From positions 1-34,281 of the forward strand of contig JASEHJ010000009.1 of the NCBI GenBank assembly GCA_030018905.1: a stretch of 34,281 nucleotides of DNA. Reading direction: 5' to 3'. The DNA is from a bacterium. GTDB taxonomy: Bacteria > Sysuimicrobiota > Sysuimicrobiia > Sysuimicrobiales > Humicultoraceae. A program made the translations under genes and the position numbers. Of this stretch, positions 7,096 to 32,025 are shown in pieces (the first letter of the stretch is position 1; each line of letters starts with the position of its first letter). Under the pieces are notes generated by a model, which saw only the letters and a program-made list of their open reading frames with translations, had not been told where the DNA came from and did not search any database.

Positions 7096-7958
7096 TGCGG
7101 ATTGGAATCCTGGTCAATCCAGCCCGGTTTGGCGGTCATCCGCAGGCGGCCGCCTTACTGCACGAGGCCGTCGAGCGTCTGCTCGCCCGGGGCGTTGCCG
7201 TCAAGGTGAGTGCCTCAGTCGCATCCGGCGCCGGCTGGCCCGACCTGGCGGCAGCAGATCCGGCACTGGTCGAGGACAGCGACCTGCTCATCGTCCTGGG
7301 CGGGGACGGTACGATTCTCTCCTCGGCGCGCCTGGCCGGCGGGCGCGTGCCCATGCTGGCTGTGAACACGGGCGGGTTTGGCTTCCTGGCAGAGCTGCCT
7401 TTGGGTGAGCTGCCGGAAGCCGTGGCCGAGATTACCTCGGCACGCTTTGCGATTGATGAGCGCACGATGCTGGAAGCGGAGATCGTGGGCGAATCCGGCG
7501 TGCGCGAGCGCGCCCTCGCGCTAAACGACATGGTGGTTTCGAAGGCCGGCCTGACCCGCGTGGTGCGCGTGACCACATGGGTGAACGGCGAGCACCTCTC
7601 GACCTATCCGGCCGACGGGATCATCGTGGCCACGCCGACAGGTTCCACGGCCTACTCGCTGTCGGCGGGCGGGCCTATCGTCCATCCCCAGGTGGACGTG
7701 ATCGTAATAACGCCGATCTGTCCCCACACCTTTACCGCACGCCCGGTGGTGGTCTCGGGTGATGCGACCATTGCCGTCGAGACCGCGGGCGCCACCGAGG
7801 ACGTGCGGCTGAACGTGGATGGTCAGGAGAGCCACCCGTTGTCTGTGGGGGAGCGGGTTGTGATCCGGCGTGCGGCCTTGCGGACTCGGCTCGTCCGGCT
7901 GGGCACCCGGAGCTTCTACGGCGTCCTGCGGACAAAGCTGGGGTGGGGAGAGCGCTAG
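7095..7958 (+). CDS. nadK: NAD kinase
   Basis: LIVLGGDGTILSSARL, NTGGFGFLAEL, YPADGIIVATPTGSTAYSLSAGGPIVHP. Confidence 0.95.
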   Translation: MRIGILVNPARFGGHPQAAALLHEAVERLLARGVAVKVSASVASGAGWPDLAAADPALVEDSDLLIVLGGDGTILSSARLAGGRVPMLAVNTGGFGFLAELPLGELPEAVAEITSARFAIDERTMLEAEIVGESGVRERALALNDMVVSKAGLTRVVRVTTWVNGEHLSTYPADGIIVATPTGSTAYSLSAGGPIVHPQVDVIVITPICPHTFTARPVVVSGDATIAVETAGATEDVRLNVDGQESHPLSVGERVVIRRAALRTRLVRLGTRSFYGVLRTKLGWGER

Positions 7959-9697
7959 TGCTGCTGGAGCTGCGGATCCAGGAGTTCGCCGTGATCGAGT
8001 CCGCGGCTATCGAGTTCGGTCCAGGTCTGAACGTCTTGACCGGGGAAACGGGCGCCGGCAAGTCCATCATCGTGGACGCACTGACCGCTGCGCTGGGCGC
8101 GCGTGTTACCGCAGACTTGATTCGGACCGGCGCCCCTGCGGCGCGGGCAGAGGCGCGGTTCGGGGTTGAATCTAGGGGGCCGATAGGCCGGTGGCTGGAG
8201 GAGCACGGGCTCGCGGAAGAGGGCGGCACGCGAGGCGGCGACGATCGCTGCGAGCTGGTGGTCGCGCGCGAGATCATGCCGGAAGGACGCTCGCGCGCCT
8301 GGATCAACGGCCGCTCAGCCACCGTGGGGATGCTGCGGGAGCTGGGAGATCTGCTGGTCGAGGTCGCCGGCCAGCACGAAGGCCAGCGGCTGCTGCGGCC
8401 CCAAGCCCACCTGGGACTGCTGGATGCCTTCGGCGGCGATACCGTGGAGACGCAGTGCGCCGGTGTGGGCGAGCTGGTGCGCCTGCGGTCGGAGCTGCGC
8501 GCCGAGCAGAAGGCGCTGGTTGATGGCGAGCGTGACCGCCTCCGGCAGGTCGAGATGCTGCGTTACCAGGTGGACGAGATCGAGGCGGCCCGGCTGCAGC
8601 CCGGTGAGGAGGAGGAGCTGTCCTCCCGCCGGGTGCGGCTGTCCAACGCGGAACGCCTCTCCGGCGCAGCGGCGGCGGCCTACGCCGGCCTCTACGAGGC
8701 CGACGGGCAGGCCGCGGTGGACAGGATAGGGCAGGCGCGGGGCGCACTGCGGGAAGCCGCAGGGCTGGATCCCGCGCTGGGAGCGCTGGCCGGACGGATC
8801 GGGGCGATTGCCGGAGAGCTCGCCGACGTCGCGCACGATCTGGCGCGCTACTCCCGTGGCATCGAGGCCGATCCCGAGGAGCTGGTCCGGGTTGAGGAGC
8901 GGCTGGACCTGCTGCGCCGGCTGCGGCGCAAGTACGGCGAGACCGTGGAGGCCGTGCTTGACTACCGCGACGAGGCCGCATCTGCGCTGGCTCGCCTGGA
9001 TGCCGGTGATGCCCGCGCCTCCGAGATCGCCGCAACGCTGGAAGAGCTGGAGCAAGACCTGACCGGACGGTGCGCCCGCCTCTCGGAGCTCCGGCGCGAG
9101 GCCGCCTCCCGGCTGGAAGACGGTGTGGAGCAGGTGCTACGGTCGCTGGAGATGGCAAGTACTCGGCTGATCGTCGGGCTTGGCTACGATTCGGATCCGG
9201 CCGGCCTCCTGCTGGGCGATCGCCGCGTGGCGGTTGGTTCGGACGGTGCCGACCGCGTGGAGTTCCTCCTGGCGGCCAACCCGGGCGAGGCACCTAGGCC
9301 GCTGGCGCGCATAGCCTCGGGCGGGGAGCTATCCCGGATCATGCTGGCGCTGCGCCATGTGCTGGCCGAGGCCGGTGGCGTGCCGGTCTTCATCTGCGAC
9401 GAAGTGGATGCGGGCGTTGGCAGCAGGGCCGCGGGTTCGGTAGCGGGGCTGCTGGCCGCGGTTGGTCGCAAGCGCCAGGTCCTGTGCGTGACGCACTTGC
9501 CCCAGGTGGCCAGCCTGGCCGACCGTCACTACTGGGTGAGCAAGGAGATGAGCGGCGGACGTACTAGGGTGCGAGTACGGGCGCTGGGACCGCAGGAGCG
9601 CGTGGAGGAGGTCGCCAGGATGCTGGGAGGGCGGCGCCCCACGCAGATTGCGCGCGAGCACGCTCTGGAACTACTGAGACGGGGAGGCCGGTCGTGA
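7958..9697 (+). CDS. recN: DNA repair protein RecN (alternative start 7943)
   Basis: [41 protein letters not shown] (Walker A), [48 protein letters not shown]. Confidence 0.95.
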
Positions 9698-11346
9698 CCA
9701 GGTACATTTTCGTTACCGGAGGCGTATCCTCCGCGCTGGGCAAGGGGATAACCGCGGCCTCGATTGGGAGGCTGATGAAGAGCCGCGGGCTGCGGGTGAC
9801 GATGCTCAAGTTCGACCCCTACGTCAACGTGGACGCGGGCACCATGAATCCACACCAGCACGGTGAGGTATTCGTGACCGACGACGGCGCCGAGACCGAC
9901 ATGGACCTGGGCCACTACGAACGCTTCATAGATGAGAACCTGGGCCGCGCCAACAACACGACCACCGGGAAGATCTACAACGCGGTCATCGCGCGCGAGC
10001 GCCGCGGGGAATACCTGGGAGGTACTGTCCAGGTGATCCCACACGTGACCAACGAAATCAAAGACGAGATCCGTTCGTTGGCCGCCGCCACAGAGGCCGA
10101 CATTCTCATCACCGAGGTAGGCGGGACCGTCGGCGACATAGAAAGCCTGCCGTTCCTGGAGGCGATCCGGCAGTTCCGCCGCACCGCGGGCGAGCAGAAC
10201 GTGATGTACATACACGTTTCGTTGGTGCCGTACCTGCGCGCCGCCGGCGAGTTGAAGACCAAGCCGACCCAGCACAGCGTGAAGGAGCTGCGCAGCATCG
10301 GCATCCAGCCCGACGTGATAGTCTGCCGGACCGAGCGCCCGCTGGGCCAGGCACTCAAGGAGAAGATCGCGCTCTTCTGCGACGTCGAGCTCGAAGCGGT
10401 CATCCAGGCAATCGACGCGCGCAGCATCTACGAGGTGCCTCTGATCCTGGAGGAAGAGGGGTTGGCCCGGATTATCCTTCGGCGGCTGGGGCTCGACCTG
10501 CCCGAGCCCGATCTGGCGGAGTGGCGCGCGATTGTCGGCCGGGTACTGCATCCGCAGCGCAACGTGCGCATAGGTCTCGTGGGCAAGTACATGGGGGTTG
10601 AGGACTCCTATGTCAGCATCGTCGAGGCGCTTCGGCACGGCGGCGTGGCCAACGACTGCGGCGTGGAGATAACGAAGCTGGACTCGGAGCAGATCGAGGG
10701 CTGGGGAGATGCCGACCTGGCTGCCCAACTCGCCCCCCTGAACGGGCTGCTGGTGTGTCCCGGCTTCGGGGCACGGGGGGTTGAGGGCAAGGTGCGGGCC
10801 ATCCGGTATGCGCGCGAGGAAGGAGTCCCGTTCCTGGGCATCTGCTTCGGCCTCCAGTGGGCCGTGGTCGAGTTTGCCCGGCACGTCTGCGGGTTGGAAG
10901 GAGCCAACACCACCGAGGTGGATCCGCAAACGCCTCACCCGGTCATCTCCCTGCTGGCCGAGCAACGGGGAATCGCCGACAAGGGCGGCACAATGCGGCT
11001 GGGGCGGTATCCCTGCCACATCACTCCTGGCTCCCGCGCCTTCGAGGCATACGGCGTCTCGGTTGTGGGGGAGCGTCACCGCCACAGGTACGAGGTGAAC
11101 AACGCCTACCGGCAGATTCTGGAAGAGCGCGGGATGCGGGTTGCCGGCATCTTCCCGGAACAGGATCTGGTGGAGATAGTCGAGTTGCCCGATCACCCCT
11201 GGTTCGTGGGGACGCAGTTCCACGGCGAGTACCGATCCCGGCCCAACCGCCCGCACCCGCTCTACAGCGCGTTTGTTCGCGCCGCGCTGGAACGGAGCAC
11301 CGCGGCGGCATCCCGGTCTGCGCTCCAGCGGGAGGAGGCACGATGA
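9694..11346 (+). CDS. pyrG: CTP synthase
   Basis: [76 protein letters not shown]; class-I glutamine amidotransferase motif [10 protein letters not shown]. Confidence 0.98.
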
Positions 11347-12248
11347 GCGGCGCGGTCTACGTCAATGGACGGATCTGCAAGAAGGAGGAGGCAACCGTCT
11401 CGGTCTACGATCACGGGTTCCTCTACGGCGATGGGGTGTTCGAGGGAATCCGCGTGTACGACGGCCGGATCTTCAAGCTCGAAGAGCACATCGCGCGGTT
11501 GTATGAGTCGGCCCACCACATACTGCTTGAGGTCCCGCTGCCCCCCGCGGCAATGAAAGACGCGATCATCGAGACCGTTCGGGCGAGCGGGCTCCGCGAC
11601 GCCTACATAAGGCCGGTGGTCAGCCGCGGCCCAGGCGACCTGGGGCTGGATCCGCGCAGGTGCCGCACCGCGACCGTGGTGATCATCGTGGACGCCGTCC
11701 GGCTCTACCCCCAGGAGGCCTACGAGAGGGGCCTGCGAATTGTCACCGCGACCGTGCGCCGGCCTGCTCCCGACACCCTGAACGGCCGGATCAAATCCCT
11801 GAACTACCTAAACAACGTTCTCGCGCGGATCGAGGCCAACCAGGCAGGCGCCGACGAGGCGCTCATGCTGACCCGGGAAGGCTACGTGTGCGAGTGCAGC
11901 GCCGACAATGTTTTTCTTGTCACCGGAGGCGCCCTTTGGACACCGGCCGCCCACCTGGGGCTGCTCCGGGGCATCACGCGCGATGCGGTGCTCTTGCTCG
12001 CCGGCGAACAGGGTCTGGCTGCGGAAGAACGCGTCTTTACGCTGCACGATCTGTACACCGCCGGCGAGTGTTTCCTAACGGGCACAGGCGCCGAGGTCGC
12101 GCCCGTCGTAGAGGTGGACGGCCGCCGGATCGGAGATGGCCGGCCCGGGCCGATCACCCATCGCCTCAACGCCGCGTTCCGTGAGTTAACGCGCCGGACC
12201 GGGACACCGGTGTTCACCCAGGGCGTGGTGAAGGATGAGCGTGGATGA
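11343..12248 (+). CDS. ilvE: Branched-chain amino acid aminotransferase (class IV PLP enzyme)
   Basis: [57 protein letters not shown]. Start at ATG 11343 (ATGA overlap with pyrG); the long ORF from 10857 reads through pyrG out of frame. Confidence 0.9.
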
Positions 12249-29380: not shown

Positions 29381-30028
29381 GTGAAGGCGCGGGAGATCGC
29401 CCTATCAGGCGTCATGACGGCGCTTGTCTTCGTCGTCACGAGGGCCTTCGCTCTCCCCATACCGCAGACGAAGGGGTTCTTCAATCTGGGCGAGGCCGGC
29501 GTCTATGCTTCGGCGCTGTTGTTCGGCCCATTGGTAGGCGCGCTGGCGGGCGGGGTCGGCTCGGCGCTGGCCGATCTCTCGTTGGGCTACGCTCAATACG
29601 CGCCGTTCACGCTTGTCATCAAAGGACTTGAAGGCGCGGTCGTGGGCCTGGTGGCGCGGACGGTCAGCCCAGGGGTCTGGCGGTTCGGCCTGGGTGCCGG
29701 CGCGATCGCCGCGGTGGTTCTGCTGGCGGCAGAAGCCCTTGCCGTGCGCGTGGCGGCGGCGGTGCTTCTGGGGGTTGCGGCTGGAGGGCTGCTGCTTCTG
29801 CGCTCTGAGGGCGGGAGCCGGGTTGCGGCCAGGGTGTTCGGCATGATGGCCGGCGGGTTGATAATGGTCGTAGGCTACTTCGTGACGCAGGCCTACCTGC
29901 TCGGCCTGGGGGTGCTGCCCGCCCTCGCCGAGGTGTCCTACAACCTTGTCCAGGTCTCGGTCGGAACCGTCGCCGGTTTGGCGGCTTCGGTGGCCTTCGA
30001 CCGCGCCCTGCCGGCTCGACCCCTGTGA
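29381..30028 (+). CDS. ECF transporter S component
   Basis: Hydrophobic; IALSGVMTALVFVVTRAFALPIPQTKGFFNLGEAGVYASALLFGPLVGALAGGVGSALADLSLGYAQYAPFTLVIKGLEG. Confidence 0.8.
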   Translation: MKAREIALSGVMTALVFVVTRAFALPIPQTKGFFNLGEAGVYASALLFGPLVGALAGGVGSALADLSLGYAQYAPFTLVIKGLEGAVVGLVARTVSPGVWRFGLGAGAIAAVVLLAAEALAVRVAAAVLLGVAAGGLLLLRSEGGSRVAARVFGMMAGGLIMVVGYFVTQAYLLGLGVLPALAEVSYNLVQVSVGTVAGLAASVAFDRALPARPL

Positions 30029-31008
30029 GGGTTGGGAAGCTCTCTCCGGCCGAGCTGCGGAACCGGGTCTTTCCGTTTCTGGGGTATCGGCGCGACATCC
30101 TTGAGCACGCCGGGATCGGGCGCGACTGCGCGGTCATTGACTTCGGCGCCGAGGTCTGTGTTGCCACGAGCGATCCCATCACAGGCGCGAGTGAGCATCT
30201 CGGGCGACTCGCCGTGCACGTCGCGTGCAACGACCTGGCCGCCGCCGGCGCGGAGCCCGTGGGCCTGCTGCTGACCCTGCTGCTGGCAGGGGCCAGCGCG
30301 GAGGAGGATCTTGACAGGATCATGCGCGAAGCCGGCGCCGCGGCCCAGACCGTTGGGGTTGAGATCATGGGTGGGCATACGGAGGTGACGCCGGGATTGA
30401 CCCGGCCGCTGGTCGTGAGCGCGGCCATCGGCCGGGCCCCGTCCGGCGGATTCGTGACCGCGGGCGGCGGCCGTCCCGGCGACGCGGTGATCCTAACCAA
30501 GGGGGCGGGTATCGAGGGTACGGCGGTCCTGGCCGCCGATCTGGCCGACCGCCTAAGACCGCTTGTAGGAGAGGCGACGCTTGATCGCGCCCGGAGGTTT
30601 CTCGACCTGATAAGCGTCGTGCCCGAGGGACGCGTGGGTGCCAGGTGCGGAGCGACAGCCATGCATGATGTGACCGAGGGCGGGGTGCTGAACGGGGTTT
30701 GGGAGCTGGCCGAGGCATCTGGATGTGGGGTCCGGCTGGAAGCCGATGCGGTTACGGTGCTCCCCGAGACCCGCCAGATCTGCGAGGTTCTCGGCGCCGA
30801 CCCGTTGGGCCTGATCGGAAGCGGTGCCATGCTGATTGCCATTGCCGACCCCGGCCGGCTTCTGTCGGAGCTGGCGCAGGCGGGCATCGCCGCGGTGGTC
30901 GTCGGGCACCTGGAGCAGAGCGATCGCACGATCATCCGCGCGGGCAGGAGCCTGACGCTGGCGCCTCTCGACCGCGACGAGCTTTGGCGTATCCTGGAAG
31001 CGCCGTAA
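30025..31008 (+). CDS. AIR synthase-related protein (HypE/ThiL-like ATP-binding fold)
   Basis: VATSDPITGASEHLGRLAVHVACNDLAAAGAEPVGLLLTLLL, VEIMGGHTEVTP, GDAVILTKGAGIEGTAVLA, AMHDVTEGGVLNGVWELAEASGCGVRLE. Confidence 0.8.
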   Translation: MRVGKLSPAELRNRVFPFLGYRRDILEHAGIGRDCAVIDFGAEVCVATSDPITGASEHLGRLAVHVACNDLAAAGAEPVGLLLTLLLAGASAEEDLDRIMREAGAAAQTVGVEIMGGHTEVTPGLTRPLVVSAAIGRAPSGGFVTAGGGRPGDAVILTKGAGIEGTAVLAADLADRLRPLVGEATLDRARRFLDLISVVPEGRVGARCGATAMHDVTEGGVLNGVWELAEASGCGVRLEADAVTVLPETRQICEVLGADPLGLIGSGAMLIAIADPGRLLSELAQAGIAAVVVGHLEQSDRTIIRAGRSLTLAPLDRDELWRILEAP

Positions 31009-31012
31009 CCCC

Positions 31013-31865
31013 GTGACGGACGCGCTGCTTCGCGCCATCGGCGCCGAGGGCGCGATTCTCGGCTGCGCTGTGATTGTCACCGGGGTTGTCGAGGAGGCGC
31101 GGCGGAGACACGGGACGCTTCCCACCGCGACGGCCGCGCTCGGACGGGCGCTGTCCGCGGTTGCGATGCTGAGTTCCGGGCTGAAGCCCCGCCAGAGCGT
31201 GATGCTCCGTATCTTGGGCGACGGACCGCTAGGGCCGGTGGTTGCCGACGGCACCGCCGATGGCGCGGTGCGAGGCTACGTTACGAATCCCATTGTGCAC
31301 CTGCCGCCTACGGCCTCGAACAAGCTTGACGTGGGAGCCGCCGTGGGGAGATCGGGCACGATCCACGTGACGCGGGACCTGGGGCTGCGCGATACGTATC
31401 GGGGCAGCGTGCCGTTGGTCTCAGGCGAGGTGGGGGAGGACCTGGCCGCCTATCTGGTCGCCAGCGAGCAGGTTCCCTCGGCGGTTGCGGTGGGGGTCAT
31501 GGTTGCGCCGAGCGGTGAGGTGCCGGCGGCCGGAGGGTGGATGCTCCAGGTGCTGCCTGGCGCGCCCGCGACGATTCCTGCCTTCCTGGAGGAACGCGTG
31601 CGCGCGCTGCAGCCGGTAACGCAGATGATCAGCTCAGGCGCGACGCCGCGGTCCAGAGAAGGTGGCGCGGGTCCTGACCGCGCTCGGCCGCTCGGAGAGC
31701 GATCGGCTGCTGCGCGAGCAGGGAATGGTGGAAGTGCGCTGTCGGTTTTGCGGGGAGCGTTACGAGCTTGGCGCGGATCAGATCGCGGAGGTGTTTGCCT
31801 CGCCCGCGCAGCCCGCGGGCGAGGACGGGGTGGTTACCTCACACGGCTGGCACGCCGCGACCTGA
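31013..31865 (+). pseudogene. hslO: Hsp33 redox-regulated chaperone, frameshifted and internally deleted near 31649-31658
   Basis: N-terminal Hsp33 in frame from 31013 to QPVTQMISSGATP; C-terminal end (EKVARVLTALGRSESDRLLREQGMVEVRCRFCGERYELGADQIAEVF) in another frame ending at TGA 31863-31865; the linker with the first CxC pair is absent. Confidence 0.8.
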
Positions 31866-32025
31866 GGCAGGCCGTGCACACCTGAGCCCGCTTGTCGACC
31901 CCTTCCACCTTGATCCGCACCTTCTGGAGATTCGGCAGGAACCGGCGCCGCGTTCGCACATGCGAGTGGCTGAAGCTGCCTCCGGCTACCGGCCCCTTTC
32001 CGCAAACCGCGCAACGTCGCGCCAT
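31834..32025 (-). CDS. rpmB: 50S ribosomal protein L28 (zinc-ribbon type)
   Basis: [63 protein letters not shown]; minus-strand gagagg upstream of ATG. Confidence 0.95.

Follow-up and report, generated by a model that had tools for sequence, protein, structure and literature searches.

The hslO gene in the window (the whole stretch of 34,281 nucleotides analysed here) is probably a very young pseudogene, and the genus appears to lose Hsp33, a redox-regulated chaperone of oxidative stress, time and again. The most likely explanation is an ordinary one, namely that a chaperone gene present in one copy was lost recently. In the assembly, the gene carries a deletion and has no second copy, congeners have lost it, and it evolved under normal constraint until recently. 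We consider it quite likely that the deletion is real, with or without a remaining function, and presumably carried by living cells. An 80-bp deletion, possibly complex, would have taken out the end of the linker together with the half of the zinc centre that carries the CxC, and the same event would have shifted the frame of the other half, which carries the CxxC. The predicted product, an N-terminal core followed by ~78 unrelated residues and devoid of the zinc switch, presumably does not work and is most likely unstable or non-functional.

Structure of the broken gene

Translation of hslO begins at a GTG start codon at position 31013 of the forward strand and proceeds as in a normal Hsp33 up to ...QPVTQMISSGATP, after which come unrelated residues (RSREGGAGP...) and a stop codon ending at 31885. 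The Hsp33 homology picks up one base over, in the +1 frame, as GPEKVARVLTALG...VEVRCRFCGERY (EKVARVLTALG...). The match to the Pfam HSP33 profile (PF01430) is split in the same manner: positions 31019-31636 of the first frame correspond to profile positions 1-203 (E about 2.2e-61) and positions 31656-31766 of the +1 frame to profile positions 235-271 (E 1.8e-7), such that ~31 profile positions, the CxC among them, are missing. The 5' part (31013..31647, forward strand) encodes the N-terminal, client-binding domain and the first part of the linker, down to ...MISSGATP; it has no internal stop codon and retains the PF01430 domain expected of Hsp33. The out-of-frame tail (31648..31885, forward strand) is a read-through of ~78 amino acids without homology or any Pfam match, whereas the 3' remnant (31656..31865, forward strand; EKVARVL...VEVRCRFCGERY...) encodes the second half of the switch, including the CxxC motif (CRFC), and has its own stop codon ending at 31865. 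The frame shifts between 31647 and 31656, and no single frame runs across linker and switch. No CxC occurs in the main frame and the CxxC is retained solely in the shifted one; the full set of four zinc cysteines is thus missing. This bore out the first-pass annotation, which had described a frameshift with a deletion removing the first half of the zinc switch and leaving the CxxC.

The N-terminal domain closely resembles that of known Hsp33/HslO proteins (PF01430; 1VZY, 1VQ0, 1I7F, 1HW7), with a phmmer match of 4.7e-56 to 1VZY over 209 amino acids, and the surroundings of the CxxC remnant are also conserved. Unlike in these proteins, the frame is broken and the four-cysteine zinc centre cannot form. 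Zinc binding and redox control of Hsp33 depend on these four cysteines (PMC4735815, PMC7423844). Variation near the linker and switch is also seen in the Trypanosoma brucei protein TrypOx (PMC7423844), but TrypOx adds an insert to the linker and keeps the redox-switch domain, whereas the hslO of the window loses the CxC cysteines.

Two genes anchor the synteny of the locus: an AIR synthase-related gene upstream (30025..31008, forward strand) and, downstream, the convergent rpmB (ribosomal protein L28; 31834..32025, reverse strand; PF00830, 1.7e-20), which overlaps the 3' end of hslO. The convergent hslO and rpmB 3' ends share about 32 bp (31834-31865). The TAG stop codon of hslO in the congener G001 reads TGG in the window, as it does in the congeners G002 and G003.

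Comparison with relatives

In G001, which has an identical gene order, hslO is intact (305 amino acids), and its N-terminal part is 89% identical in amino acid sequence to the window copy over 209 residues. Alignment and exhaustive breakpoint placement showed that a single block of 80 nt (26 codons plus 2 nt) present in G001 is absent from the window, with the junction at 31647..31656 (forward strand) and the block best placed after 31647. The G001 stretch concerned encodes DEMLHLALGDLPMSVLERRPVRFSCRCSQ, which comprises the last part of the linker and the zinc ligands of the CxC. The flanks that match G001 enclose 8 nt (GCGGTCCA, 31648-31655) with a poor fit to it, and a GP after the CxC occurs in none of the 35 intact relatives examined. 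Since these junction nucleotides do not match the homologous remainder, they hint weakly that the deletion was complex and not just the collapse of a repeat, and a complex or two-step event may be behind the 80-nt loss. The junction motif CGGTCC occurs twice inside the G001 stretch, a recurrence that might bear on the deletion mechanism and is suggestive only.

The missing segment is a normal part of Hsp33, as the first-pass annotation had supposed. All 35 intact relatives examined in the genus, family and order keep the CxC...CxFC arrangement, which speaks against chance. A Pfam search of the genome (2.75 Mb in 340 contigs, 92% complete) found hslO at one locus, split over the two frames; there is no second copy in this assembly, and the missing 80-nt stretch was not found at any other place in it. 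Within the order, 37 of the 43 genomes have an Hsp33 match. The genus is mixed: G001 is intact, the genome studied here is broken, and G002 and G003 have no Hsp33 match anywhere in their genomes. In these last two, the AIR synthase-like gene and rpmB still adjoin (44 bp apart in G002, 30 bp in G003) with no hslO between them, which indicates that hslO has been lost from the locus and is not merely unassembled. G003 retains two pieces from the 3' end of hslO, namely GCGGATCAGATCG and the final codons, and G002 clearly only the final codons, so that their breakpoints differ. In a tree of the four congeners the branches received weak support (37% and 70%), too little to order or count the losses. 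We read these comparisons as repeated loss of Hsp33 in the genus, of which the window copy would be one step. A GTDB genome-contig scan for close relatives found no conspecific (best match, 46% identity), and a literature search on Hsp33 pseudogenes returned nothing relevant.

Elsewhere in the order, hslO homology breaks off abruptly at about codon 260 in one contig (L066, 3037-4101, genome G030), where just the C-terminal part of the gene lies beside rpmB and unrelated sequence fills the rest of the contig; this may be either a rearrangement or a contig-end misjoin.

Age of the break

Compared with G001, dN/dS was 0.14 for the N-terminal part of hslO and 0.21 for the C-terminal remnant, both in the range of the neighbouring genes, and assignable amino acid changes numbered 7 on the window lineage against 6 on that of G001. 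Under a simple count model, in which the window lineage is assumed to hold half of the synonymous changes, the neutral share of that lineage was at most about 15-20%. The ratios thus do not tend towards 1, as they would under the relaxed constraint of a pseudogene, and a real pseudogene would need a very recent inactivation. Normal constraint until very recently does not fit long-term decay, nor does it fit a compact variant of long standing. It also rules out an old pseudogene shared by descent with G002 and G003, and a recent break cannot be what underlies the losses in both of these congeners. The window copy shares with bacterial pseudogenes formed by small frameshifting deletions the single deletion not divisible by three, the disruption of a frame that is intact in its orthologue and the existence of close relatives without the gene but with scraps remaining. 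It differs from ordinary ones in being otherwise undecayed; with no decay beyond one deletion, the break must have happened very recently, if it is real at all.

Alternative explanations

Of the three options proposed in the first-pass annotation, a broken redox chaperone is the best supported, given the single copy, the 80-nt frameshifting deletion and the loss in two of the three congeners, which came out of the proposed searches for a second hslO and of the comparison with relatives. The option of an assembly collapse fell in its repeat-driven form, since the 21-mer at the junction is unique, leaving no repeat to cause a collapse, and the missing segment lies on no other contig. The main rival, which we hold less likely, is that the real gene is intact and that the break stems from a deletion in a minority strain chosen by the assembler or from a local error of assembly or consensus. 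The fragmentation and incompleteness of the assembly are in keeping with such an error, and a constraint on hslO indistinguishable from that of working neighbours is what would be expected of an intact gene. Against it, an error would have had to strike the very gene that two of the three congeners have lost, and we saw nothing comparable in the other coding frames of the window and no convincing frameshift in 20 sampled contigs. Over 27 kb of alignment with G001, genic gaps were multiples of three or local compensating sets, hslO excepted. In the window and the 20 other contigs, 48 of 63 matched G001 ORFs were intact in one frame; the exceptions besides hslO, judged from the table, were apparently contig edges, partial matches and ORFs running into non-coding sequence. 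One apparent frameshift, in L081, was checked individually, and there the G001 ORF seems to begin far upstream of the conserved gene.

Much less probable is a retained, shortened Hsp33, in which the core without zinc switch would act as an unregulated holdase and the frame-shifted tail be tolerated. The client-binding surface of Hsp33 lies on the N-terminal domain, the role of the redox domain is mainly regulatory and a mutation that destabilises the linker makes the protein constitutively active (PMC4735815). Structures of C-terminally shortened E. coli Hsp33 have been solved (3m7m, 235 amino acids; 1hw7, 255 amino acids), and the N-terminal part is intact and conserved in the window; uncontrolled binding of clients by such a core is conceivable in principle. 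However, none of the 35 intact relatives has such a form, all of them keeping both cysteine motifs, the constraint is older than the deletion and the congeners simply drop hslO. That the cell uses an always-on holdase without switch, as an intermediate towards losing redox regulation in the genus, appears similarly improbable. A compact Hsp33 with the CxxC only, made by programmed +1 frameshifting, can practically be dismissed: both frames are open and conserved, but the recent origin of the break accounts for the conservation of the C-terminal part, the junction shows neither a stop codon nor any other feature of a shift site, the fusion, like the frame-shifted product, would still lack the CxC as well as part of the linker, and the arrangement was found in no relative examined, which also disposes of a compact Hsp33 lineage.

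If the young pseudogene is real, the congeners form a gene-loss series, with G001 intact, the window copy freshly broken, and G002 and G003 deleted with scraps, and would offer a small natural series on when a redox chaperone turns dispensable. In annotation, this locus should not be labelled a functional or compact Hsp33.

Two other differences between congeners were observed in the window. A class IV aminotransferase gene at 11304-12226 (PF01063; ORF 10857-12248) is shared with G001 and absent from the otherwise syntenic G003 contig. A RecN/SMC-like gene (7943-9697) is unusually divergent from its G003 counterpart (dS 0.80, dN 0.29, compared with dS 0.41 and dN 0.07 for G001), suggesting that recombination replaced the gene on the side of G003.
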